Shown here: positions 6,679 to 23,833 of the stretch, one piece after another
How the letters are laid out: each line of letters opens with the position of its first letter
Position numbering within the stretch: position 1 is the stretch's first letter
DNA from: a virus
Length of the DNA: 23,833 nt
Virus record (IMG/VR): IMGVR_UViG_3300037264_001053
Coordinates: 1 to 23,833 of that record
Reading direction: 5' to 3' (one strand)
The notes under the pieces: generated by a model
What the model was told of the DNA's origin: nothing
Database searches by the model: none
The model's input: the letters and a program-made list of their open reading frames with translations, nothing else
Position numbers and translations under genes: made by a program

Positions 6679-7809
6679 ATGACTGCTACAGACAAAATTG
6701 AATGTTTACTTTGCAACAAGATGTATAAAACACTAAACGCGCATATGAGAACACACGGCATAAAACTAGATGATTACCGTATTAAGTTCCCTGATGCGCC
6801 TGTGATATCAGAAACAGCGAGTAATACTGTATCGAAACAACTCTCTAAACGAAATAAAGATAAGTGGACAGACCCTAACTACCGAGAACAAATGTCTAAG
6901 ATGCGCTCTGAGGCTAATAAGCGTAATTGGAAGAAGAATGGTTATAGAGAAGCTAGAACTAAGGAAGCACAAGAGAGATTTACATCAAAAGAGTTTATAG
7001 ACTCAGTTAGGGATGTAAGGCGAGAGACAGGTAGACGAGTCATTAAAAAGCGCGGGGAAGAGAATCCAGAGAAGATGCGCGAATTAGCCTCTAAAGCTCT
7101 CAAAGATTGGTGGAAAGACCATTACGATGAAGCTGTAGAGCAATCTAAGAAATTTTGGGAGTCATCAGAATTCAGAGAAAAAATAAGTAAAGCTGTATCA
7201 GAATCAAATAAAGAGAGATGGAAAGATCCTGAGTTTAGAACAAAGCTTATAGCTGCTGTTAAAGCCAAGTGGGAGGATGAAGCCTACAAGAGTATGATGG
7301 TAGAAACTGCTAGAGAAACTTGTAATGAGCGTTGGAAAGATCCTGAATTTAGAGACAAGATGGAAGCTATTTGGGGCAGCGCTGATTACAAAGAAAAGGT
7401 ATCTAAACGTATACTACACCTATGGGCTACTCAAACCGATAGAATGCTAGCTGCCACAAAAAAAAATGGTTACGGAATCAAAACAAAACACACATCATCT
7501 AAAACAGGAGAAACATTTACAACACGATCTAAACTTGAAGCTACATTTGCTCAACAATTAGATGAAGATGACAATGTAGTTTACTATGCTTATGAATCAA
7601 CACGTGCTCCCTACTTGTATGAAAATAAAGAACATACCTATATTGTAGACTTCTATATAGTTACAGTAGATGGACAGGAACATCACATAGAGTTAAAACC
7701 CAACAAATTCTCTCCAAATGACCAAACACAAACTAAATGGAAGGTAGCTCAAGTTAAGTTAAGTAATTTTCACATTCTTAATTTTCCAATCGAGCTATTT
7801 GAAGGATAA
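6679..7809 (+). CDS. Free-standing homing-endonuclease-like protein: zinc finger, helical repeats, PD-(D/E)XK nuclease
   Basis: Predicted site-specific DNA endonuclease. Residues 9-26 form C-x2-C-x9-H-x3-H (C9, C12, H22, H26), followed by GIKLDDYRIKFPDAP, which recalls the Ros/MucR zinc finger. Residues about 55-255 are eight to ten copies of a charged helical repeat of 22-25 residues with a W/F-x-x-x-x-Y/F core (KWTDPNYRE, ERWKDPEFRT, ERWKDPEFRD, IWGSADYKE), similar in style to NUMOD3-type DNA-binding repeats of homing enzymes. The C-terminus has a PD-(D/E)XK arrangement: E287, D324 (VDFYIV), E338 and K340 (IELK). Such genes are known in phages as selfish elements. It separates the baseplate genes from the fibre genes and has its own ribosome binding site. 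Domain reading is by eye; nuclease function is well supported, target unknown. Confidence 0.75.
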   Translation: MTATDKIECLLCNKMYKTLNAHMRTHGIKLDDYRIKFPDAPVISETASNTVSKQLSKRNKDKWTDPNYREQMSKMRSEANKRNWKKNGYREARTKEAQERFTSKEFIDSVRDVRRETGRRVIKKRGEENPEKMRELASKALKDWWKDHYDEAVEQSKKFWESSEFREKISKAVSESNKERWKDPEFRTKLIAAVKAKWEDEAYKSMMVETARETCNERWKDPEFRDKMEAIWGSADYKEKVSKRILHLWATQTDRMLAATKKNGYGIKTKHTSSKTGETFTTRSKLEATFAQQLDEDDNVVYYAYESTRAPYLYENKEHTYIVDFYIVTVDGQEHHIELKPNKFSPNDQTQTKWKVAQVKLSNFHILNFPIELFEG

Positions 7810-7815
7810 AAACTA

Positions 7816-8205
7816 ATGCCTGGCGTAAACGGAGATTTAGTAGCTATAACATTGTATACAAGTACAACACCTGTACACTTCAGTACATCCAATGTTCCTT
7901 TCTCTGAAATGGACATTAACGTACTTCTATTAGATCAAAAATTAGAAGGCTGGATAGCGTCAGGAGATGAGGCATATAGTGAGGCTGGGGATGGAACTTT
8001 TACAACTCCTGTAGTCTTTGCTACTGTTATGAATACTGTTCCTAGTATATCTGTAAGTAAGGCAGATATTGTTGGAACTGGTGTAGCAACCCTTTACGTA
8101 TCTATAGCAAACAGAACAGTTACTGGGTTTGATTTAACTGTAGATGGTATAGGAACAGCGGGGGCATGGACAGCAAATATAGCGTGGATTGCTGACGGTA
8201 GATAA
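7816..8205 (+). CDS. Short fibre-like protein, paralogue 1 of the shared N-terminal module
   Basis: Residues 1-43 (GVNGDLVAITLYTSTTPVHFSTSNVPFSEMDINVLLLDQKLE) match the opening of four other genes downstream (G-x-x-x-DL-x-x-I-x-x-Y, a short loop, then a 'N-x-L-x-x-D-x-K' helix). The rest (about 85 residues) is a compact beta domain (TVPSISVSKADIVGTGVATLYVSIANRTVTGFDLTVDG) and lacks the GFMS repeat. At 129 residues it is the shortest member and could be a minimal fibre, an adaptor or a decoration protein. GAAGGA at 7801-7806, inside the end of the endonuclease-like gene, is 9 bases before the ATG. The stop overlaps the next ATG. Structural role is inferred from the paralogues and location. Confidence 0.75.
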   Translation: MPGVNGDLVAITLYTSTTPVHFSTSNVPFSEMDINVLLLDQKLEGWIASGDEAYSEAGDGTFTTPVVFATVMNTVPSISVSKADIVGTGVATLYVSIANRTVTGFDLTVDGIGTAGAWTANIAWIADGR

Positions 8206-9095
8206 TGGTACAGGGCGTTGAGAACGATCTACTTAACATCAGTTATTATACAAATACGAGTGAAATTTACTTTGTAGAAGATAATAGACCTGTTGTAGAT
8301 TTAAATAAAAACATCCTAACTGTAGATAATAAAGCAATCTTAGCAAAGACTACAGCAGTCCAAGCACAAACAGATTTTGCAGCGCACCAAGGAGGGGGAG
8401 GTTCTGGTGTGCATGGCCTAGCTACTCCTAGTGTTGCTGGCTTCATGTCCGCTGCAGATAAAATAAAAATAGATGGAATACAGGCAGGAGCAAGTGTAAA
8501 TATAATTTCACCTACAGATGCCCTTGAGCTTGTAGGCAAGGGTATTACTACACTACATAGACATCCCGTTGTGGATACTGCTCGTAAAGGATTCATGTCT
8601 TTCGTAGATAAAGTAAAAATGAATGGTATAGAACTTTTAGCTGATGTAAATAATATTTCTGATATAGATGCTACTACTCTTGTTGGCGGCCCGTCTAGTA
8701 ATGCGACACTTTTACACACGCACGTACAGCCTTCTTTTACAGAAACGTTCACGCAGGCTGTTCACTTTACGCACGATCATACAGGATTACCAGGGATAAC
8801 ACCGTATACAGGAATAAATACATCACTATTCAATATCAGTAATGAAATAACTACTACTGGCCCTTTAGTAACTGAAGTTTATTCACAACCGTTCGGATTT
8901 CAAATCAGTGCTATGTGCTGTGGAATCCATACATTTGGAACAGTAGGAGCAGGCGGCGGATACAAACTGTTCCAAATAGAAAATGTCCAAGTTACGGCAG
9001 GAAACGTTGGAGTAGTAACATTCTCTATACAAGAAACAATTCCAACTGGTGGTTCTTGTAAACTTCGTGTTTGGTTAGCTGCAGGAGGATTGTAA
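8205..9095 (+). CDS. Tail fibre-like protein, paralogue 2 (two GFMS...LHxH repeats)
   Basis: The 296-residue protein starts with the shared module (MVQGVENDLLNISYYTNTSE, then NILTVDNKAILAKTT). After a Gly-rich hinge (HQGGGGSGVHG) come two copies of a roughly 50-residue repeat: GFMSAADKIKIDGIQAGA with LHRHP, and GFMSFVDKVKMNGIELLA with LHTHV. A TETFTQAVHF.HDHTGLPGITPYT segment follows, and a C-terminal beta domain that differs from its paralogues. Repeats of this kind occur in trimeric tail fibres, and HxH motifs coordinate metal in the T4 gp37 tip. Start and stop both overlap neighbours (TAATG). Fibre assignment is likely; receptor is unknown. Confidence 0.8.
   Translation: MVQGVENDLLNISYYTNTSEIYFVEDNRPVVDLNKNILTVDNKAILAKTTAVQAQTDFAAHQGGGGSGVHGLATPSVAGFMSAADKIKIDGIQAGASVNIISPTDALELVGKGITTLHRHPVVDTARKGFMSFVDKVKMNGIELLADVNNISDIDATTLVGGPSSNATLLHTHVQPSFTETFTQAVHFTHDHTGLPGITPYTGINTSLFNISNEITTTGPLVTEVYSQPFGFQISAMCCGIHTFGTVGAGGGYKLFQIENVQVTAGNVGVVTFSIQETIPTGGSCKLRVWLAAGGL
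9084..9088 (+). promoter_or_regulatory. Ribosome binding site deciding the start of paralogue 3
   Basis: GGAGG lies 6 bases before the ATG at 9095. An earlier in-frame GTG at 9071 would add eight residues not shared with the paralogues, so the ATG at 9095, which overlaps the preceding TAA, is chosen. Confidence 0.7.
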
Positions 9096-9982
9096 TGTCC
9101 CAAGGAGCAGAGAACGATCTATTTAACATTAGGTACTATCAAGAGTCTTTTTCTGTACTAGGTATTGTTGGCGGTACTGGGCCAGATAACGACCCTATAG
9201 TAGACCTTAACTTAAACACATTACTAGTAGATAACAAAGCTATTTTTGCAAGAGATACTGCAGATACGGTAACTTTAGATTTATCAAACCATATTGGGGC
9301 TTTTGGTCCATTAGAACACGCAGATGTAACAATAACTGACGCTGGTTTCATGTCATCTGCAGATAAGATTAAATTAGATGGAATACAAAATAAAGCACAG
9401 AATAATATCCTAGCTCTTGATGACGAATTATCTCTAATCTCTAGGAAAGATAGTATCTTACATCAACACCCACAGGTAACAACAACAGTTGATGGTTTTA
9501 TGTCTGCCGCCGATAAGACCAAATTAAATGGAATAGAAACTGGTGCGCAGGTAAACAATATAAATACGTCTCAAGCTTCGATATTAAAGGGCGGTGGACT
9601 AGCTGATACATTACATATACACGATCATGATTCAGGTACAGAGACGTTTACTCAAGCAGTACACGCTCTATTAGACCACACAGGTGTAACTGGAGTACCT
9701 GGCTTTCCTGGATTTACCACAGCAGAATCATATTTTATAAGCAGTGATGTATCAGGAACATTTGCAGTACAAATTTTTTCACATGCATATTCATTTGCGC
9801 CAGAACTTGTACAAGCAGGATGGAGGAAATTTAAGATTGATGATTGGGATTATGATGAATCATGGAAAATTGATAATATTGCTATTTCAGGTAACTCTGG
9901 TGTAGTAACCTTTAGCCGCGCAGGAACAGGACCAGGAGGATATTCATCTACTATTGGTTTGTGGCAGGGAGCGTTTGGATAA
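9095..9982 (+). CDS. Tail fibre-like protein, paralogue 3 (two GFMS...LHxH-type repeats)
   Basis: The 295-residue protein opens with the shared module (MSQGAENDLFNIRYYQESFS ... LNTLLVDNKAIFARDT). This copy has an extra loop (GIVGGTGPDNDPI) inside the module. Two repeats follow: GFMSSADKIKLDGIQNKAQ with LHQHP, and GFMSAADKTKLNGIETGAQ with LHIHDHD. The next segment (TETFTQAVHALLDHTGVTGVPGFPGFTTAESYF) is shared with paralogues 2 and 4, and the C-terminal domain (WRKFKIDDWDYDESWKIDNIAISGNSGVVTFS, ending GLWQGAFG) is closest to that of paralogue 4. It overlaps both neighbours by one base. Probable trimeric fibre or fibre segment. Confidence 0.8.
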   Translation: MSQGAENDLFNIRYYQESFSVLGIVGGTGPDNDPIVDLNLNTLLVDNKAIFARDTADTVTLDLSNHIGAFGPLEHADVTITDAGFMSSADKIKLDGIQNKAQNNILALDDELSLISRKDSILHQHPQVTTTVDGFMSAADKTKLNGIETGAQVNNINTSQASILKGGGLADTLHIHDHDSGTETFTQAVHALLDHTGVTGVPGFPGFTTAESYFISSDVSGTFAVQIFSHAYSFAPELVQAGWRKFKIDDWDYDESWKIDNIAISGNSGVVTFSRAGTGPGGYSSTIGLWQGAFG

Positions 9983-10872
9983 TGGCTCAAGGTGCAGAAT
10001 TAGATTTGGTGGATATTAGCTTCTTTACAGAAGATAGAGCAGTCTATTACATCAATGATAACGTAACATTTCAAGAAATAAATACAAATGTACTTACAGT
10101 TGATAATAAAGCCATCTTAGCCAGAAACACAGCCCAAACTGTAACAGCAGATTTAGCGGCACACATAGGATCCGTAGGGTTACCTGTACACGCAGGAGCC
10201 ACTACAGCGTCATCTGGTTTTATGTCGGCTACTGATAAGCTGAAACTAAATAACATAGCAACTGGCGCTAAAGTAGGTATTTTGTCGCCTGCTGATGCTC
10301 TAGAGCTAACTACACGTAAAGATACTTTTTTGCACCTACACCCTGCAGCTACAACAGCAGCAAATGGTTTTATGTCTGCTGTAGATAAGGTTAAATTAGA
10401 TACTGTTCAAACAGGTGCACAAGCAAATAGATTAAATGATGCCAACGCCTTAACACTAACAGATGGTTCTAATGCTGATTCTCTACATACACACTTTTTT
10501 GGTTTAATAACAGAGACTTTTACAGCAACAGTACATAATTCTATATCTCACGCAGGTATACCAGGTACAGCAGGTTTCACACCTTTTACTACAACGGAAT
10601 CCTATTTTCCAGGACCTTTAATAGACAATAGTACAGGCACTACTATACAGATATTTAGTCATACGTACCCGTTTCTTCCAGAAGTCCTTTCAGGGGATTG
10701 GCGCTATCTACATACTACAGGTTTTAATTCAAAAGATACGGCGTTAACTACAGGTTTTGCCATTTCAGGTAATGATGGTATAATCACGTATTCAGCGGAA
10801 GATACTAATGCTGGTGGCACGGATATATTAACTTTATCTTGTTGGCAAGGCGCTTACGGAATTACACCATGA
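9982..10872 (+). CDS. Tail fibre-like protein, paralogue 4 (two GFMS...LHxH repeats)
   Basis: The 296-residue protein begins MAQGAELDLVDISFFTEDRA with NVLTVDNKAILARNT, the clearest copy of the shared module. The start at 9982 overlaps the previous TAA; an in-frame GTG at 9961 gives unshared extra residues and is rejected. Repeats are GFMSATDKLKLNNIATGA with LHLHP, and GFMSAVDKVKLDTVQTGA with LHTHF. The tail (TETFTATVHNSISHAGIPGTAGFTPFTTTESYF, then TGFAISGNDGIITYS and SCWQGAYG) aligns with paralogue 3, so these two are the most recent or most exchanged pair. The end overlaps the next gene by four bases (ATGA). Confidence 0.8.
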   Translation: MAQGAELDLVDISFFTEDRAVYYINDNVTFQEINTNVLTVDNKAILARNTAQTVTADLAAHIGSVGLPVHAGATTASSGFMSATDKLKLNNIATGAKVGILSPADALELTTRKDTFLHLHPAATTAANGFMSAVDKVKLDTVQTGAQANRLNDANALTLTDGSNADSLHTHFFGLITETFTATVHNSISHAGIPGTAGFTPFTTTESYFPGPLIDNSTGTTIQIFSHTYPFLPEVLSGDWRYLHTTGFNSKDTALTTGFAISGNDGIITYSAEDTNAGGTDILTLSCWQGAYGITP

Positions 10873-13090: not shown

Positions 13091-13324
13091 ATGAATAAAT
13101 TACATGTATTACTGCTATCACTTGTATTTTTAGTTCCAGGATGTTGCGGCAACTACGCTTTATACGTAAATAGTATGGAAAAGGATCTTCAAGAACTACG
13201 TCCTATGGTGGAAGACTATGTTCTAAGAGATGAAAGACTTAGCGATGCTGACCGTAAAGCTCGTCTATCCGTTTTAGATGAAATGGATAAGAAAACAGAA
13301 GTTGCTAAGAAGGATGTAGAATAG
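13091..13324 (+). CDS. Small predicted lipoprotein
   Basis: Residues 1-18 form a signal peptide with a hydrophobic core (LHVLLLSLVFLVPGC) ending in a lipobox-like VPGC, so C18 would be lipidated and the mature 59-residue chain anchored in a membrane. The mature part is highly charged and helical (NSMEKDLQELRPMVEDYVLRDERLSDADRKARLSVLDEMDKK), probably a short coiled coil. Small lipoproteins in phages are often outer-membrane spanins or superinfection-exclusion proteins. I see no partner i-spanin or endolysin here, so neither role is shown. Its TAG stop overlaps the next GTG. Confidence 0.72.
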   Translation: MNKLHVLLLSLVFLVPGCCGNYALYVNSMEKDLQELRPMVEDYVLRDERLSDADRKARLSVLDEMDKKTEVAKKDVE

Positions 13325-13695
13325 TGGCTCTTAACATAGATCCAGTACTTCTAAAAGAAAGTCTATTTAGCGCAGCAAAGGACGCAACAGAAGTGCACCT
13401 AGCTGAGGCGTTAGATGAGACTAAAGCGTTACACGTTAAGTATTTAGAAGAACTTAGAGCTTACACAGATAACCTTGCTGTTCTTAAATTAGAAATAGCT
13501 GAAGCGTCTACGCCAGAATTAAAGATGGTTAAACTGCAAAGCATTAAACTACAACAACGCTCTATTAACGGATTAGTAGACAGATATCAGATGATATTTC
13601 AACAAGAAGCTATAGAGCGTGTAAAGGAGGTACTGAAAACGGTGGCATTGACTATCGGGAAAATTGCTTTCTCGATGGCAATTGCCGCCGTTTAG
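13324..13695 (+). CDS. Unrecognised 123-residue helical protein with a C-terminal hydrophobic segment
   Basis: It starts at GTG 13324, overlapping the preceding TAG, with AAGGA at 13310-13314. Residues 10-100 are strongly helical and charged (HLAEALDETKALHVKYLEELRAYTDNLAVLKLEIAE), probably a coiled coil. The last 18-20 residues (VALTIGKIAFSMAIAAV) form a hydrophobic segment cut by the amber stop at 13693. Reading continues in the same frame (VGLAVDLEDVPTNEL...) into the next gene. On its own it looks like a tail-anchored membrane protein. It may work with the lipoprotein before it. I do not recognise a family. Confidence 0.68.
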   Translation: MALNIDPVLLKESLFSAAKDATEVHLAEALDETKALHVKYLEELRAYTDNLAVLKLEIAEASTPELKMVKLQSIKLQQRSINGLVDRYQMIFQQEAIERVKEVLKTVALTIGKIAFSMAIAAV

Positions 13696-13722
13696 GTAGG
13701 CTTAGCCGTTGACCTAGAAGAT
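13693..13722 (+). other. In-frame amber junction between two ORFs
   Basis: TAG at 13693-13695 is followed by nine sense codons (VGLAVDLED) that lead in the same frame to the GTG at 13723. No convincing Shine-Dalgarno serves that GTG; AGAAG at 13716-13720 is only 2 bases away. The hydrophobic segment runs across the stop. Possible readings are stop-codon readthrough, a recent nonsense mutation splitting one gene, a sequence error, or two genes that happen to be in phase. Confidence 0.45.
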
Positions 13723-14130
13723 GTGCCTACAAACGAATTAGCAGATAAACTATTTGATGATAAAGTAGAAATATCAACAGTAGCGGAGAAGGCTATGGCA
13801 AAAGTTAGCACAGAAATGGTTAATAAAGAAGCAAAAGATCTAAATGAACTTTTTGCAGATGGGTTTCAGGTATCTGACTTATTTAAAGCTATCACACATT
13901 TAATGGAAATAGCTGAGATTATGGAAGGAACTACAGGAGAAGAGAAGAAAGAATTTGTAATCTCTGCTTTCAAAAAATTCTACGATAAGCAAAACATAGA
14001 CCTATCTAGATGGGTTCCGCAGTGGCTTGAAAAGAAAATTATTAACGTAGCAATTGATGTTGCCCTACCTGCAGCTATTGATTGGATTGTTGATGCTACT
14101 AAAGGTAAACTACAGTTAAATAAGGATTAA
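13723..14130 (+). CDS. Unrecognised 135-residue acidic helical protein
   Basis: I do not recognise the family. The product from GTG 13723 is acidic and mostly helical (LFDDKVEISTVAEKAMAKVSTEMVNKEAKDLNELF), with a Trp-containing part (DLSRWVPQWLEKKIINVAIDVALPAAIDWIVDATKG) that could be an amphipathic or short hydrophobic helix near residues 100-125. The start is weakly marked, and the next in-frame ATG (13795) would cut 24 residues. It shares its frame with the preceding gene, separated only by the amber codon at 13693, so it may be the C-terminal half of a longer protein. AAGGA near its end serves the next gene. Confidence 0.62.
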   Translation: MPTNELADKLFDDKVEISTVAEKAMAKVSTEMVNKEAKDLNELFADGFQVSDLFKAITHLMEIAEIMEGTTGEEKKEFVISAFKKFYDKQNIDLSRWVPQWLEKKIINVAIDVALPAAIDWIVDATKGKLQLNKD

Positions 14131-16508: not shown

Positions 16509-16829
16509 ATGATAAATATTAATGATATTATACACAACCTTTTATCAGGTTCTCCTATTGATGTTACCCTAGATAGGATGTCAATAACAGAAGCTGATGA
16601 CCTATGTGAAATATGTTACATACATAGGAAATCAAAGAAATCTTCTGCCTGTTTAAAATGCCTGAAAGAGCTTAGTGCAGAGGTACATGGTGAACCGCTA
16701 TGTCCTGTGTGTGCTAAAAACCCTAAACCCGGTAATGCTAATGCTTGTAAAGAATGTTTACAGGCATTAGAAGATGAACAAGCTAAAACAATTAAAAAGA
16801 AACAATCCAAATACATTCCAGAAGAATGA
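16509..16829 (+). CDS. Small protein with a duplicated zinc ribbon
   Basis: The start is set at ATG 16509 (MININDIIHNLL), 7 bases after the previous stop; the in-frame extension back to 16422 lies inside the preceding gene and gives unlikely residues. The 106-residue product has two copies of C-x2-C-x11-C-x2-C: CEIC...CLKC and CPVC...CKEC, each followed by a similar helix (LKELSAE / LQALEDE). This is an internal duplication of a zinc-ribbon unit of about 35 residues. The C-terminus is Lys-rich (KTIKKKQSK). Such proteins usually bind nucleic acid or act in transcription. As the last gene before the palindrome-rich gap it is a candidate regulator of that region, by inference. Confidence 0.75.
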   Translation: MININDIIHNLLSGSPIDVTLDRMSITEADDLCEICYIHRKSKKSSACLKCLKELSAEVHGEPLCPVCAKNPKPGNANACKECLQALEDEQAKTIKKKQSKYIPEE

Positions 16830-16852
16830 TTTGGATGTCACCGCCAAGTACA

Positions 16853-16876
16853 AGTACAGTACTATAGTACTGTACT
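16853..16876. repeat. Perfect 24-bp palindrome
   Basis: A perfect inverted repeat centred between 16864 and 16865, with a central ACTATAGT and GTAC at both ends. The two halves meet without a spacer, which suits a dimeric protein site better than a simple hairpin. Its right half (TATAGTACTGTAC, 16863-16875) recurs exactly at 16940-16952. Confidence 0.85.
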
Positions 16877-16904
16877 AAATATAGTACATTAATGTACTAT
16901 ATTT
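16877..16904. repeat. Perfect 28-bp palindrome
   Basis: A perfect inverted repeat centred between 16890 and 16891 (core AGTACATTAATGTACT, flanked by AAATAT and ATATTT). It abuts the 24-bp palindrome without a gap. All but four of its bases (two GTAC) are A or T, so it would also be an easily melted site. Confidence 0.85.
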
Positions 16905-16942
16905 GTTTTAGTATTGTACTGTACATTATACTATATCTTTAT

Positions 16943-16958
16943 AGTACTGTACAGTACT
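16943..16958. repeat. Perfect 16-bp palindrome
   Basis: AGTACTGTACAGTACT, centred between 16950 and 16951, made of three overlapping GTAC steps. A short T run (16958-16961) and a T8 run (16968-16975) follow, so a weak intrinsic terminator for the upstream operon is an alternative reading. Confidence 0.8.
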
Positions 16959-17004
16959 TTTGTAATGTTTTTTTTGGCATCTAAAGTCTCACTCTTTCAG
17001 AACT

Positions 17005-17010
17005 TATAAT
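17005..17010 (+). promoter_or_regulatory. Possible -10 element for the replication operon
   Basis: A consensus TATAAT 73 bases before the helicase gene. The best -35-like hexamer, TTGGCA at 16974-16979, is 25 bases away, which is too far for a standard sigma-70 promoter. The -10 match alone is weak evidence in AT-rich DNA. Confidence 0.3.
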
Positions 17011-17082
17011 CATGCACACAAGATTGTAGGTGTATGCAGTACAGTTCATGTGTGGTCAAATACACATGGAATATAAAAATTC

Positions 17083-18618
17083 ATGGGTACATCTACTGAA
17101 AGTCCAATTATCCCCATGGTTATAATTACTGAAGGTCCAGTAATTTCCTCTATAGAAGGAGATAAAGAACTTCTTGAGAAGATAGAAAAACTTCTCACTC
17201 TTATCAGAGATAAAGAGGACAAAGTACTTGAACTTTGCATCAATGTAGATGAATCTAAGATAGAGTTCTATTCTGGTCTTTGTTCCTATATTGAACAAAC
17301 TCTTCAGGATAATAGTATTTCCTTTTGCAAAAAAGGACTGGATCCTCTTCCTATTGAGGATGTAGATAGTGACCTGCTTAGTTATGGACCTACCCCCATC
17401 TCTCTCAGAGACTATCAATGTATTTCCATCAGGAAGGCTTTATCATCTTATAGAGGAATATTCAATATAGTGACAGGAGGTGGTAAAACTGAAATAATTA
17501 TTGGTATAGCTCTGTTGATGGAAGTCCATAGCACTAAAAATTACACTAGTCTAACAGTAGTACCATCCACCAGTTCTTTGATACAGCTATACAAGAGATT
17601 TAAAGATAGGGGTGTAAAGAGTGTTGGACGGCTAGGAGGAGGGTATACAGAGTGGGGTAAGAATCACACGGTAGCTACAGCTTCTATGCTTGCGTCTCGT
17701 ATTAGGTCTGAAGATGTACATGTAGGAAAGTTTTTGAGGAATGTCTATATTTTAATGTTTGATGAAGTACATCATCTGGGCACTGCACCGTCATGGCAGA
17801 CTGTAGCCACACATTGCACCGCCCCCCGCCGTTACGGCTTCTCAGGGTCTCCCTGGGCCTCAGGGATGCCCTCTGTTGACTTGTTTGACGAGGAGGATTC
17901 ACAGTACGCAGATTTTATTGTGACATCACATGTAGGACAAACATTACTGTATTTGCCTTCAAGGTTGTTAAGAGATATCGGTGTCATCGTAGACCCAAAA
18001 ATCTATGTGTTACCTGTTGATAAACCTAACCTTAAGGGTAATCCGTTTCCAAAATGGCGCTGGGTTTATAAGAATGGTATAGTGCTAAATGACGCGCGCA
18101 ACGCGTTAATAATTGATACAGTATGCAAACTAAACGAGCGAGGGCACAGAGTTGCTGCGCTCGTTGTTTCTATAGAGCACGGAAATAATCTAATTAAGAT
18201 GTTGCATGATAGAGGACTTACAGCCGCCTTTACAAAAGGAAATGGTGAGGCGCATATATTTGATGGAAAAAAGATACGTAAATACAAAAATGCAGGTGAG
18301 CGCTATAGAGATGATTTTTTAGCAGGAAAGATAGATGTCCTTATAGGTTCTGTTGTTATTGATGAGGCTATGGATCTACCTGCTATGAGTGCTTTAGTTT
18401 TAGCAGGGGCTATGAAATCGCCCGTTAGAGCCGTTCAACGAATAGGTAGAGCTATTAGAACCGCAGCAGGTAAGGATGAAGCTATCATAGTGGACTTTAG
18501 GGATAGGCAACATTACTTCTTGAATAACCACACTAATAAAAGATTGCGTATATATGATGCGCACGATTATGTTTACGAAGAATTAGACTACGAAGAATTT
18601 GTGGAGAGATTGTCTTGA
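17083..18618 (+). CDS. SF2 DNA helicase, XPB/UvsW-like
   Basis: ATP-dependent helicase of superfamily 2, probably acting in recombination-dependent replication, fork restart or repair like T4 UvsW. In the 511 residues, LRDYQ (108-112) is the Q-like motif, VTGGGKT (130-136) is Walker A, DEVH (227-230) is motif II, FSGSP (253-257) is motif III, and VQRIGRAIR (451-459) is motif VI. The second RecA domain includes ALVVSIEHGNNLIKMLHDRG and DVLIGSVVIDEAMDLPAM. The first 100 residues are acidic and unrecognised. No clear Shine-Dalgarno precedes the ATG at 17083, the first gene after the palindromic gap, so the start is less certain. A GC-rich patch covers the motif III codons. The stop overlaps the TTG start of the next gene. 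Confidence 0.88.
   Translation: MGTSTESPIIPMVIITEGPVISSIEGDKELLEKIEKLLTLIRDKEDKVLELCINVDESKIEFYSGLCSYIEQTLQDNSISFCKKGLDPLPIEDVDSDLLSYGPTPISLRDYQCISIRKALSSYRGIFNIVTGGGKTEIIIGIALLMEVHSTKNYTSLTVVPSTSSLIQLYKRFKDRGVKSVGRLGGGYTEWGKNHTVATASMLASRIRSEDVHVGKFLRNVYILMFDEVHHLGTAPSWQTVATHCTAPRRYGFSGSPWASGMPSVDLFDEEDSQYADFIVTSHVGQTLLYLPSRLLRDIGVIVDPKIYVLPVDKPNLKGNPFPKWRWVYKNGIVLNDARNALIIDTVCKLNERGHRVAALVVSIEHGNNLIKMLHDRGLTAAFTKGNGEAHIFDGKKIRKYKNAGERYRDDFLAGKIDVLIGSVVIDEAMDLPAMSALVLAGAMKSPVRAVQRIGRAIRTAAGKDEAIIVDFRDRQHYFLNNHTNKRLRIYDAHDYVYEELDYEEFVERLS
18603..18608 (+). promoter_or_regulatory. Ribosome binding site supporting the TTG start of the helicase
   Basis: GGAGAG lies 6 bases before the TTG at 18615, which overlaps the preceding TGA. 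This supports the TTG over the first in-frame ATG at 18666. Confidence 0.55.
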
Positions 18619-20990
18619 TACAGCAACGAGTATATCCATACGATAGAGATTTCCAAACAGGCGTGATGGCTTTATATTGCCAAGACCCTGGGTTTAGACG
18701 ACAGTATGACGATGTAGTAAATAAAAGCTACTTTGATGATGCTGGACTTATTGAGGTGTGCAGCCTAGCCAAGAAGTTAAATAAACGTGGTGGCGTAGTT
18801 ACTAAAGATGCCATTGAAGCAGAATACGTAGGAAGTGCTAAGAAGTTTAAGCATAGTAAGAGCCACGCGCTTAGGGTGCGCAGTACTGTGACAGACGTAT
18901 TTGAGATGAGTCTTGAACACTTAGACTACATCCCAGAAAAGATAGTTAAGTTTGCGCAGACACAAGCTGTAGCTACTGCGTGCCAAAAGATTGCTGGAAT
19001 TCTTGAAGCTGATGGGGACATAGATCAGATTAAGTCAATCATGGATAGCGCACTACAAGTAGGTTCTGAGCGTAATCTAGGTAATGACTTTTTTGAAGCT
19101 GCTGCAGACATAGGCATGCTTAAGAAAAGTATGATGCACGATGTTGCTAACAAAATTCCAACAGGCTTAAAAACACTAGATGAAACGATGCGCGGAGGTC
19201 TGAGTATAAGTGAGCTTGGAATGATTATTGGCCCCACAGGACGCGGCAAGTGCTTTAGTAAAGGCACGCGAGTTTTAATGTATGACGGAACTACAAAAGC
19301 CGTAGAGGACGTTATAGTTGGTGATTTACTAATGGGGGATGACTCTACTTCTAGGAGGGTTCTAGAAGTTACACAGGGTCACGGGCCTTTGTATACTGTA
19401 AACCAAATAAATGGAAATTCTTATACAGTTAATGATAGGCATGTGCTTTCTTTATACCGCACTAAAGCATCTATAGATGGCAAACCATCTAATGATAGTG
19501 GCTTTGTAGATATACCTATTACTGATTATTTAAACAGTAGCAAATGGTTTAAGCATAGACATAAAGGCTACAAAGCAAAAGCAACTTTTCCAACAAAGGG
19601 ACTGCCCCCATTTAGTCCTTATTTCATGGGGTTGTGGTTAGGAGATGGCACAGCAAGAACAATGGCTGTTGAGGTTAATGACACAGATGCTGAAATAGTA
19701 GAGTTCTTAACAGAGTTTTGTAGTGAAGATAGTTTACAACTTGAAATTAAGAACTTTATAAAAGATGCTGGGCTTAGTAGTGTTAAGCACATTCCTGATG
19801 TATTTAAATTTGCGTCTGAAGAGGATAGGTTAGAGCTACTTGCAGGGTTTATAGATGCTGATGGCCATAAACATTACAATGGCTACGATATAGTTCATAG
19901 AGATACACCTTTAATTCACGATATAGTGTTCGTAGCCCGTTCTTTGGGGTTTAGAGTCGCATCTTCAGAGTGCACTAAATCTTGTCAAAATAATTTTACT
20001 GGTAACTACATTAGAGTAAGTATATTTGGAGCCACAGATAAGATACCCGTAAAACTCCCATATAAACGATGCGCTCCACTATCAAAAAGAAATCCGCTGG
20101 TTTACGGTATTAGTGTTACGCCAGCCGGTAATGGAGATTATTTTGGGTTTGAAGTAAGCGGAAATCACAGGTTTCTTTTAGAGGACTTTACAGTTACTCA
20201 TAATTCCATCGTACTTGTAAACCTAGCCGCAGAGGCTTTAAAGGCAGGTAAAAACGTTGTTTACGTTACCTTTGAACTGTTTGAGCATGAGGTATTGTTG
20301 AGATTTTTTCAGAAGCTCACGGGTTCAACAGATGCAGAGGTTCTTGAGGAGTCACCAGAATTCAGAGAGAAGATGAATAAATTCCTTAAAGACAAAAAGC
20401 ATAAGTTAAGGATTAAGTATTTTCCTCCTGCTACGTTATCAGCCACACAACTCCGTGCTTACCTTTCAAGATTACAAGCACAGGAAGGTTGGTCTCCTGA
20501 TCTTTTAATTCTTGATGATGCTGACTCAATGCGTATACCTAAGCCCGGTAACTCCGATAGTGCAACCGCAGCAACATATCAGGCACTTGGTGTGTTATAC
20601 TCGGATATCATTTCAATTCTTGTAGATTTTACTTGTGGATCTTGGGTAGCTTGCCAAGCAACTCGATCCGCCTTCGATTCAGAAATGGTGGGGCTGGAGC
20701 ATACAGCAGACTCATTCAAGAAAGCACATAAAGCAAACATGGCTCTAGCTCTTTGCCAAACTCCTGAAGAAGGGGAAAGAGATGAAGGTAGATTGTTTGT
20801 GGCTAAAGCTCGCGCTTATAGAAGTGGTTTTTTAATTCCCATCAAATTCAATAAGCCAATAATGCAAGTTATAGAAAAACCTTTAGTCATAAGATCCAGA
20901 CCAATCACAAATGGAACAGGCTTAGACGGCGAAGCTCGTAAGAAAAAGGCACACCGCAGTGGGGCAACCTCTAGCAGCAATTCTAGGTGA
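18615..20990 (+). CDS. DnaB-type replicative helicase precursor containing an intein
   Basis: Hexameric 5'-3' helicase that unwinds DNA at the fork and pairs with the primase encoded next. The N-terminal domain (about 1-150) resembles DnaB_N/T4 gp41. The RecA core starts at IPTGLKTLDETMRGGLSISELGMIIGPTGRGK (181-212) and resumes at residue 531 with SIVLVNLAAEALKAGKNVVYVTFEL. After removal of residues 213-530 the P-loop reads GPTGRGKS and the helicase is 473 residues, a normal length. Walker B is LLILDDAD, and AKARAYRSG near the end fits the arginine-finger/DNA-binding region. The TTG start has its own GGAGAG site. The gene overlaps the primase start by 32 bases. Activity would depend on protein splicing, since the intein separates K212 from the P-loop serine. 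Confidence 0.9.
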   Translation: MIQQRVYPYDRDFQTGVMALYCQDPGFRRQYDDVVNKSYFDDAGLIEVCSLAKKLNKRGGVVTKDAIEAEYVGSAKKFKHSKSHALRVRSTVTDVFEMSLEHLDYIPEKIVKFAQTQAVATACQKIAGILEADGDIDQIKSIMDSALQVGSERNLGNDFFEAAADIGMLKKSMMHDVANKIPTGLKTLDETMRGGLSISELGMIIGPTGRGKCFSKGTRVLMYDGTTKAVEDVIVGDLLMGDDSTSRRVLEVTQGHGPLYTVNQINGNSYTVNDRHVLSLYRTKASIDGKPSNDSGFVDIPITDYLNSSKWFKHRHKGYKAKATFPTKGLPPFSPYFMGLWLGDGTARTMAVEVNDTDAEIVEFLTEFCSEDSLQLEIKNFIKDAGLSSVKHIPDVFKFASEEDRLELLAGFIDADGHKHYNGYDIVHRDTPLIHDIVFVARSLGFRVASSECTKSCQNNFTGNYIRVSIFGATDKIPVKLPYKRCAPLSKRNPLVYGISVTPAGNGDYFGFEVSGNHRFLLEDFTVTHNSIVLVNLAAEALKAGKNVVYVTFELFEHEVLLRFFQKLTGSTDAEVLEESPEFREKMNKFLKDKKHKLRIKYFPPATLSATQLRAYLSRLQAQEGWSPDLLILDDADSMRIPKPGNSDSATAATYQALGVLYSDIISILVDFTCGSWVACQATRSAFDSEMVGLEHTADSFKKAHKANMALALCQTPEEGERDEGRLFVAKARAYRSGFLIPIKFNKPIMQVIEKPLVIRSRPITNGTGLDGEARKKKAHRSGATSSSNSR
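19251..20204 (+). mobile_element. Intein with LAGLIDADG homing endonuclease, inserted in the helicase P-loop
   Basis: A 318-residue intein, from C213 to N530. Block A is CFSKGTRVLMYDG. The block B region ends in NDRHVLSL (H276); the usual TxxH threonine is Asn here. Endonuclease motifs are FMGLWLGDG (337-345, D344) and LLAGFIDADG (408-417, D416), both with their acidic residue. Block F is GDYFGFEVSGNHRFLLED, and the end is THN followed by Ser531. All nucleophiles for class 1 splicing (C1, HN, +1 Ser) are present. The insertion lies exactly between GK and S of Walker A, a known favoured site for inteins in P-loop ATPases. The endonuclease would cut intein-free alleles and copy the element by homing. 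Confidence 0.93.
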
Positions 20991-21903
20991 TCCTTACCCA
21001 CATAGTTACGGTAAGGAGATTAGATACAATTGTATTTATTGCTCAGTTAACGGTAAATCTTCTGACATAAATTACCATCTGTATGTTAACCAAGAATCAG
21101 GTTTGTTCTTCTGTCATAGATGTGAGATGCGCGGGCATATATCAAAATTTGACGACTCTGTGGTATGTGACAAAGAATACACAGTTAGTCGTGTGGAAAT
21201 GTTAGCAAGTAGTTTTAGGCCGCACACTGAGCCTAAGCTACCTAAAATAGCTACTGCATCATTACCTGATGATTATATAGCTATAGAGGACTTACCTAAC
21301 TCTAAAGCAATGGCTTATCTTGAGGGGCGTGGTATACCTTTTGAGTTAGCGGTACAGCGTGGTATTGGTTTTGGAATTAAAATAAATAAAGGTCGTATAA
21401 TATTTCCTGTGTTTAACTATGAGCATACAGAATGTATTTATTGGGTAGCTAGGAGTTATACAAATACAGATCATCCTAATGATTGTGAATGTATTTTGTG
21501 TAAAGCTAAATACTTCAATGCTCCTAAAGCTCGACGTCGTTACTTTTTATACGGTGTTGAGTTTGTAGATTCAGACACTTGTTGTCTTACAGAAGGATGT
21601 ATTTCTGCATTATGCAGCGGTCCTGGTAGTGTAGCAGGCTTCGGGAAATACATTACTTCAGACCAATTGGATATTTTGTCTGATAGGTTTGATAGGATAC
21701 AGGTAGCGCTGGACCCTGACGCTACAAAAAATTCTATAGACGTTATGAGAGAACTAATGGCTAGGAGAAAGCATGTAGAATTCATCCCACTTCCTAATGG
21801 AAAGGATCCAGCAGATATAGGAACAGATGGAATGCTGTATTTAAGAGAGCACGAGGCACTACAGATTAATCGCGCAAATTTAGGAACAGTGTTGTTTTAT
21901 TAA
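20959..21903 (+). CDS. DNA primase with zinc-binding and TOPRIM domains
   Basis: Makes RNA primers for lagging-strand synthesis together with the DnaB-type helicase. The start is GTG 20959, 32 bases inside the helicase gene; AAGG in 20943-20949 is a weak site for it. Residues 25-55 hold a C-x2-C ... C-x2-C zinc ribbon (C25, C28, C52, C55). A DnaG-like core follows (MAYLEGRGIPFELAVQRGIGFG, then GRIIFPVFNYEHTECIYWVARSY). The TOPRIM motifs are E212 (TEGCISAL), the DPD at 252-254 and GKDPADIG near 281-288. An extra C-x-C-x2-C (C176, C178, C181) lies between core and TOPRIM. No helicase domain is attached, in line with the separate helicase gene. At 314 residues it is much shorter than bacterial DnaG. 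TAA overlaps the polymerase ATG. Confidence 0.88.
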   Translation: MGQPLAAILGDPYPHSYGKEIRYNCIYCSVNGKSSDINYHLYVNQESGLFFCHRCEMRGHISKFDDSVVCDKEYTVSRVEMLASSFRPHTEPKLPKIATASLPDDYIAIEDLPNSKAMAYLEGRGIPFELAVQRGIGFGIKINKGRIIFPVFNYEHTECIYWVARSYTNTDHPNDCECILCKAKYFNAPKARRRYFLYGVEFVDSDTCCLTEGCISALCSGPGSVAGFGKYITSDQLDILSDRFDRIQVALDPDATKNSIDVMRELMARRKHVEFIPLPNGKDPADIGTDGMLYLREHEALQINRANLGTVLFY

Positions 21904-23833
21904 TGCCTGCACCAGCTTGTACTAAGTGTCCATTATTTGAAAATGTTAACACTATATTAATTCCTGGTAAGGGTTCTGATGCGCCCAAGATACTATTCGT
22001 AGGAATTTCCCCAAGTTGGCAAGATGATAGGAAAGGAGAGTGTTTTACAGGTGCACCAGGTAGAGAACTTATCAAAATATTAAATACAGCAAAGATAGAC
22101 TTGGAAGAGGTAAGGTTTACAAATTTAGTTAGATGTGCACCTTGGCAGAACGTTAAAACTAAAGGAAAGATAAGGCACCCTGTAGAGAGTGAAATAGTAA
22201 AATGTTCACCATACCTATTAGATGAAATAGGTAAAGTAAAACCTAAAGTAATTGTGCCTCTTGGGCCGATACCTACGTACTTCTTTTTGCCCCACTTAGG
22301 CGCTAACTTAAGAATAACTAAATACTCTGGTACGCCTTTTACATGGCAACATCCCGCTACAGGTGATGACTATACTGTAGTTCCAACTATACATCCGGCT
22401 GCTCTGTGCAATTCGGATAGGTACGTATCTAACATTCTCAATGCTTTGGAGATTGTAAAGCAAGCGGCTACAGGAAAGTCTGTCGATATATTTGATGACT
22501 GTACTTACATGTACTTAGACTCTGAAGAAAAGATAGAGAATTACGTTGATATGGTGATTGCTAAGTACTTGGCAGATCCAGATGACCCATATAACGTAAT
22601 ATCTGTTGACGTTGAAACAGGGTTTTCAGAGCCTTTGCCAGAGGATTGCCCTTACAGTCAAAAAGATATAGCACTCAGCCCTTACAACCCATATAACATT
22701 GTAGTATCAGTGCAGTTAAGTCATGCTCCTAAGTACGGGGCGCTTATACCTCTCTGGCACAAAGACTCGCCTTTACGGGATTATAATGATTTGAAGATGG
22801 TAGGATATCATCTTCAACGTTTATTTGATGTAGTTCCTGTTATAGGGCAAAACTTCAAGTTTGATTTTCAAGTTTTGTACGTGAAACTAGGCGTAGAAGT
22901 AAGACGTGTAGCTTTCGATACTATGCTTGGCCAATTTCTCGTGTACCAGAAGTCTCAACCTTTAGGTTTGGAAGATATGGCAGGTATTTACGTAGATATG
23001 CCTATGTTTAAGCAGGAGATGCATAAAGCCTTAGAAAGCCTACCTGAAAATGTTATGCATATGGGGAATGTGGACTTAGATAAGTTAATTAGGTATGGCT
23101 GCGGTGACGCCGATGTAGTATTTAGACTTTACATTGTATTTCGTGAAAGTTTAATAGAATGCGGGCTTTGGGAGACGTACCAAACAGTAATAGCTGATTC
23201 CACTAGTGCGCTGAGTTGGGTAGAGATTGCAGGAATGGTAATAGATCCTGAACGCCTAGAAACATTACGTGATGCTTTTATTGAAGACTTAAATACGTTA
23301 CTCAACGATATACGTAGTAGTTGGCTTATTGATGATTTTGATGAATTAGTAATGGATACACATATTAAAAATGTAGAAGCTGAAAAGAAAGAGAAAGAAG
23401 AGAGGAGACAAGAAGAAGGTAAGAAACAATTAAAGGATAGGAACTGGTCGGCAGGAGTAATCGCAAAAAGAGAGGAAAAGCTTAAGCAGAAATTAAGTTT
23501 CAATCCAGGGTCATCTGATAATCTTAGTAAATTGTTTTTTCATCATAAATTGATGGGGTTCACGCCTACAAGTAAGACAAAAACAAAGAAGCCATCAACA
23601 GATAAAAAAGCTAGAAGAGAGATACTAGAGCAGGCCGTTAAAAAGATTGATACTTTGCGTAAAAGTGGTGCGAGTGAGAATGAAATAGGTTTTTACGAGG
23701 ATGCTATAGAACTAATAGAGAAAATAAGTGAATGGACAGGGCAAAATAAGTTGCACTCTGCTTATATCAAGAGTGCTGCAAAATTGATACACGATACAGG
23801 TTCTATAAAATCTCCGTGGCCTATTGAACTGCC
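21903..23833 (+). CDS. UDG-like / 3'-5' exonuclease / family A DNA polymerase fusion (3' end outside window)
   Basis: Replicative polymerase of the phage; about 643 residues are visible and the palm/fingers lie beyond the right edge. Residues 1-190 resemble family 4 uracil-DNA glycosylase: four possible Fe-S cysteines (C6, C9, C78, C101), GISPSWQDD...GECFTGAPGREL (34-55), FTNLVRC and PTIHPAAL (161-168). The usual GE-x-PG glutamate is Ile here. Residues 230-410 are a DnaQ-like exonuclease with VDVET (D236, E238), IGQNFKFD (N317, D321) and YGCGDAD (Y398, D402), so proofreading looks intact. The polymerase domain begins near SWVEIAGMVIDPERL (438-452), with FNPGSSDNLSKLFF (533-546) and STD (565-567). 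A charged stretch (EAEKKEKEERRQEEGKKQLK, 492-511) lies in the thumb. Similar UDG-polymerase fusions are known in SPO1-like phages. Confidence 0.88.
   Translation, partial: MPAPACTKCPLFENVNTILIPGKGSDAPKILFVGISPSWQDDRKGECFTGAPGRELIKILNTAKIDLEEVRFTNLVRCAPWQNVKTKGKIRHPVESEIVKCSPYLLDEIGKVKPKVIVPLGPIPTYFFLPHLGANLRITKYSGTPFTWQHPATGDDYTVVPTIHPAALCNSDRYVSNILNALEIVKQAATGKSVDIFDDCTYMYLDSEEKIENYVDMVIAKYLADPDDPYNVISVDVETGFSEPLPEDCPYSQKDIALSPYNPYNIVVSVQLSHAPKYGALIPLWHKDSPLRDYNDLKMVGYHLQRLFDVVPVIGQNFKFDFQVLYVKLGVEVRRVAFDTMLGQFLVYQKSQPLGLEDMAGIYVDMPMFKQEMHKALESLPENVMHMGNVDLDKLIRYGCGDADVVFRLYIVFRESLIECGLWETYQTVIADSTSALSWVEIAGMVIDPERLETLRDAFIEDLNTLLNDIRSSWLIDDFDELVMDTHIKNVEAEKKEKEERRQEEGKKQLKDRNWSAGVIAKREEKLKQKLSFNPGSSDNLSKLFFHHKLMGFTPTSKTKTKKPSTDKKARREILEQAVKKIDTLRKSGASENEIGFYEDAIELIEKISEWTGQNKLHSAYIKSAAKLIHDTGSIKSPWPIEL

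Follow-up and report, generated by a model that had tools for sequence, protein, structure and literature searches.

A dense array of GTAC palindromes as a probable terminator-type boundary between the structural and replication modules of a deeply divergent phage

The window analysed here, i.e. the whole 23,833-nucleotide stretch, is a 23.8-kb virus fragment (IMG/VR record IMGVR_UViG_3300037264_001053; 40% GC) with all of its main genes on the + strand. Structural genes extend to ~15.7 kb and include a baseplate hub/tail lysozyme, a baseplate wedge, a tail protein and repeated tail-fibre-like genes, after which come three small ORFs. The last of these, and the last gene of the structural side, is a small double zinc-ribbon-like ORF (16509-16829, + strand) whose translation contains paired CxxC motifs; it has no Pfam or PHROG family match and no relative among solved structures. 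It is followed by a 253-bp intergenic gap (16830-17082; 30% GC), the only long gap of the window (the next longest is 69 bp), and then by an SF2 helicase (UvsW-like; 17083-18618, + strand), which is the first gene of a replication operon that continues with an intein-split DnaB-like helicase, a primase and a UDG-exonuclease-PolA protein. Gene order is similar in SPO1-like phages (helicase, then DnaB) and in Pseudomonas phage QdP_Psa3 (helicase, DnaB, primase), but amino-acid identity of the relatives to this phage does not exceed about 35%. Scans by tblastn and alignment-based methods recovered distant relatives only, and no close relatives were found by single-protein scans of viral contigs or genome contigs, nor by blastn of the locus; by these comparisons the phage is deeply divergent.

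Several other features of the window were recorded. The DnaB-like helicase ORF (18615-20990) carries an in-frame intein with a homing-endonuclease domain (Hom_end_hint, Hom_end), inserted at the Walker A region (GPTGRGK|C...HN|S), and the PolA-type polymerase with 3'-5' exonuclease at 21903-23831 has an N-terminal uracil-DNA glycosylase domain, as in SPO1-like phages. Between the tail genes, ORF 6679-7809 combines a ROS/MUCR-like zinc finger with a TnsA-like nuclease domain and is possibly a free-standing homing endonuclease; it precedes a run of related tail-fibre-like ORFs (7816-10872) with the common repeats 'GFMSA.DK.KLD.I..GA'.

The first half of the gap is filled by an array of GTAC palindromes (16848-16958; 25% GC), in which twelve GTAC tetramers lie within 110 bp (16848-16957). 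A perfect 24-bp palindrome with centre TATA (P1, 16853-16876) directly abuts a perfect 28-bp palindrome with centre TTAA (P2, 16877-16904), and a perfect 16-bp palindrome lies further on (P4, 16943-16958). The 13-mer TATAGTACTGTAC is present at 16863-16875 and 16940-16952, with its reverse complement at 16854-16866. The tetramer count, the three perfect palindromes and the 13-bp direct repeat had all been given in a preliminary description of this DNA and were confirmed, while a fourth, imperfect palindrome (P3, TAGTAtTGTACtGTACAttaTACTA, 16909-16933), read directly from the sequence, was absent from it. One outlying near-copy, GTACAGTTC, is found in the leader of the helicase gene (17039-17047, + strand). 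The centres of the array sites are spaced 13, 49, 28 and 5 bp apart and helical phasing is absent.

The palindromes and the GTAC density greatly exceed chance expectation and have no equal in the window. Fewer than one GTAC had been expected by chance in such a length; the rate outside the gap is 0.40 per 110 bp, and the maximum in 20,000 simulated 110-bp stretches of the local dinucleotide make-up is 8. Similar GTAC palindromes scattered elsewhere had been named as evidence against a special role, and no comparable cluster or palindrome occurs in the rest of the window: outside the cluster no 110-bp stretch has more than 4 GTAC, and the longest perfect palindrome is 12 bp (at most 18 bp in 20 random order-2 Markov sequences of window length). 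Furthermore, 1.67 Mb of relatives and reference phages contain no other perfect palindrome of 24 bp or longer and at most 6 GTAC in any other 107-bp stretch. Searches gave no Rfam match and no tRNA, blastn of the array alone gave chance-level matches only, and a literature search on GTACTGTAC operators or such GTAC arrays found nothing relevant.

As RNA, the + strand of 16830-16985 is predicted to fold with -57 kcal/mol, compared to -29.8 +/- 3.7 for shuffled sequences (z = -7.3). The predicted fold consists of three hairpins: H1 and H2 coincide with P1 (16853-16876, -12.6 kcal/mol) and P2 (16877-16904, -10.5 kcal/mol), and H3 (16916-16957, + strand, -18.9 kcal/mol) has a two-part stem to which P4 contributes the 3' part. 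An outer helix that encloses all three hairpins (GATG..GCCAA/TTGGC-ATC) is short and probably due to chance, and was discarded. H3 is followed by the U-tract TTTTGTAATGTTTTTTTT (16958-16975, + strand; tail score 3.82), a broken tract (TTTTGTAATG...) that is interrupted after four U, and H2 by GTTTT on the + strand, a weaker terminator-like site; the array hairpins have U-rich tails on the + strand only. H2 lies 48-75 bp past the stop codon that ends at 16829; in viruses, the frequency of perfect inverted repeats is highest about 50-80 bp past stop codons (PMC13155455).

Sites were scored with our own implementation of a standard idea, i.e. dG - 3 x tail score, where the tail score discounts later and interrupted U. 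H3 with its tail scores -30.4, better than any other intergenic terminator-like site of the window; the best scores were -27.3, -24.1 and -25.5 in three random sequences of equal length and only -15.7 on the minus strand of the gap. The single site of the window that scores better ends at 13690, inside a coding region. Among local RNA folds of the window, the strongest lies at 13630-13725 (z -5.5) and covers the 3' end of ORF 13324-13695, where a stem at 13636-13690 on the + strand is followed by TTTAGG. A stock consensus-type scan, for which a stem needs three or more G-C pairs, a loop of 3-8 nt and a compact T-run behind it, found no terminator; it misses H3 because the stem is AU-rich and the scan's loop and tail rules are strict. 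A stable predicted stem-loop is present, as is a U-tract that immediately follows it on the strand that is transcribed, but the stems of the array are only about one third G-C and depart from the strict intrinsic-terminator consensus of GC-rich stem, short loop and compact U run, so the array is classed as terminator-like and not as a textbook intrinsic terminator.

The same position was compared in 23 loci that have a distant relative of the helicase, an upstream gene in the same direction and, between the two, a gap of at least about 70 bp. In 17 of the 23 the helicase is preceded by a + strand terminator-like site with a score of -24 or better, as opposed to 2 of 72 random stretches from these loci; five (L040, L041, L043, L044 and L047) are near-identical and one has a dubious long weak stem (L029), so that the 17 represent about a dozen independent cases. 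The typical site is a textbook hairpin followed by a long run of U, e.g. TCCCTTGGAAATCCATCCAAGGGATTTTTT in SPO1, and in both SPO1 (L007) and EalM-132 (L008, in which the terminator is annotated) it stands exactly before the same helicase, while many other helicase relatives have no gap upstream at all. The search for the same palindromes in related phages that had been proposed went against the origin reading: the array is absent where the flanking helicase is kept, an outcome that had been named beforehand as refuting, albeit in relatives that are distant rather than close. The position is therefore often a boundary in relatives, with the palindromes a lineage-specific way of filling it. A close parallel comes from SPO1-like phages (Herelleviridae), in which an intrinsic (Rho-independent) terminator precedes the gp19.5-type helicase and occupies the same place, i.e. 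past the last late gene and before a UvsW-like helicase, with a + strand U-tract and then a leader. However, the SPO1-like terminator has one GC-rich stem and a long uninterrupted U run, whereas the array has three AU-rich hairpins, abutting perfect palindromes and a broken U-tract.

Dense GTAC arrays are also found in other phage contigs (L183, L195/L258, L205, L220, L230/L261, L176/L263 and others), and a pattern scan for arrays of three GTACWGTAC sites returned only 13 stretches in all of IMG/VR. A looser scan (two GTACWGTAC sites within 34 bp) was compared with a composition-matched control core, CATG, with a dense cluster defined as at least 10 cores per 110 bp. Among the matches listed, dense clusters made up 17 of 119 for GTAC and 2 of 120 for CATG, or 9 and 2 without tandem repeats, and removal of duplicate contigs lowered the number among the matches listed further; the greater frequency of GTAC clusters among these matches is suggestive only. 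The arrays neighbour a helicase-bearing segment, a clamp loader, a replication-initiation gene, a terminase or unknown genes, with no common context among the flanking genes compared, and a wider class of GTAC arrays is a lead, not a finding. One of these phage contigs has a very strong intergenic GTAC-rich hairpin complex (L183:13081-13290, -88.9 kcal/mol) about 1.5 kb from a helicase gene. In the Bacteroidales MAG RGIG5467, a ~90-bp GTAC-rich palindromic repeat (GTTGTACAGTACTTGTACAGTA...) recurs on many contigs (L290, L294, L295, L297 and others) and looks like a multi-copy palindromic element.

The array is probably a transcription boundary between the late structural genes and the replication module, built from tandem terminators. 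The preliminary description had offered a replication origin, a cooperative operator or a terminator/insulator between late and early genes, and the last is the best supported, by the + strand U-tracts after H2 and H3, the best intergenic score and the hairpin in 17 of 23 relatives. Sequence, predicted fold, strand asymmetry of the U-tracts, position and the hairpin in most relatives form its basis, and from these we infer termination in vivo, differing expression times of the modules and a promoter. Transcription running out of the structural genes on the + strand would pass through the three hairpins in succession; H3, and to a lesser degree H2, with a U-rich tract would act as an intrinsic-type terminator, and H1 and H2 would add back-up termination or protection of the 3' end. 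The replication operon would then start from a separate promoter within the 125 bp of leader that remain, where TATAAT (17005-17010, + strand) is a candidate -10 box of the helicase operon, with no good -35 and outside the consensus list of the stock scan. The replication genes of Listeria phage CKA15 reach their peak at 15 min, ahead of the structural genes at 40 min (PMC12282133), so a boundary between such modules is to be expected. The AU-rich stems, in an array of 25% GC, and the broken H3 U-tract count against a terminator. Furthermore, P1, P2 and P4 are perfect through the loop, which a terminator does not need, and this hints at a function at the DNA level as well.

Such a function could be that of an operator, in which a phage- or host-encoded dimeric repressor or activator binds TAGTAC/GTACWGTAC dyads that lie immediately 5' of the helicase promoter; this is a less likely, tentative possibility, and the bound dyads would time the replication operon and may coexist with the terminator as a second layer. 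Perfection through the centres, which has a chance of about 1/16 per 4-nt loop, the use of the half-site TATAGTACTGTAC at least three times, the TATAAT 47 bp downstream of the array and the further near-site in the leader all point this way. The unphased spacing of the centres does not, and with sites at this locus only the fragment shows no regulon; nor was a DNA-binding regulator recognised in the window, and the relatives lack the array. The zinc-ribbon ORF as the ligand is a guess, as it has neither family nor structural match. The repressor or initiator palindrome and iteron arrays of phages and plasmids (operators, iteron origins) likewise consist of iterated dyads adjoining replication genes, but the GTAC array is unphased, comes with no known gene for an initiator or repressor and is confined to a single locus.

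Use of the palindromes as initiator sites, with the 22%-GC stretch 16877-16985 as unwinding element beside the helicase, DnaB, primase and polymerase, appears quite unlikely. The array is AT-rich, iterated and adjoins the replication module, and in an unrelated phage contig (L241) a similar GTAC array is located inside a replication-initiation gene; nevertheless, cumulative GC skew over the 23.8-kb fragment rises monotonically across the site with no change, the irregular spacing lacks the about-helical period of iteron-type origins, relatives keep the helicase and not the palindromes, and GTAC arrays elsewhere have terminase, clamp loader or unknown genes as neighbours, so the origin proposed earlier found no support from skew, spacing or relatives. 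The telRL telomere-resolution sites of linear plasmid-phages such as N15 have a long perfect palindrome and flanking repeats. The array shares these traits, but it has several short palindromes in place of one long site and no protelomerase was recognised in the window. Non-functional or selfish expansion, by hairpin-templated duplication of the GTAC motif or as a small mobile palindromic element, is also improbable: sporadic, non-homologous GTAC arrays in unrelated phages and the multi-copy repeat of the Bacteroidales MAG are in its favour, but the array occurs once in the window, lies exactly at the boundary that carries terminators in relatives and has strand-asymmetric U-tracts. It is unlikely, though conceivable, that GTAC arrays have arisen repeatedly and convergently in phages as a control element with two readings, one at the DNA level (dyads bound by dimers or sensitive to methylation) and one as RNA (AU-rich terminator hairpins in tandem); here such an element would stop late read-through and time the replication operon.

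The GTAC array is thus a real and striking element, probably of ordinary, terminator-type function, and it is unusual as a boundary of that type in having abutting GTAC palindromes in place of a single GC-rich stem. For now it is chiefly a regulatory region, well placed, in a deeply divergent phage. If the array terminates transcription, it shows that a boundary between phage modules can persist when its sequence gives way to a wholly different design, here an AU-rich, multi-hairpin one that escapes standard terminator finders. If the palindromes also bind protein, the array would form a compact late/early switch.
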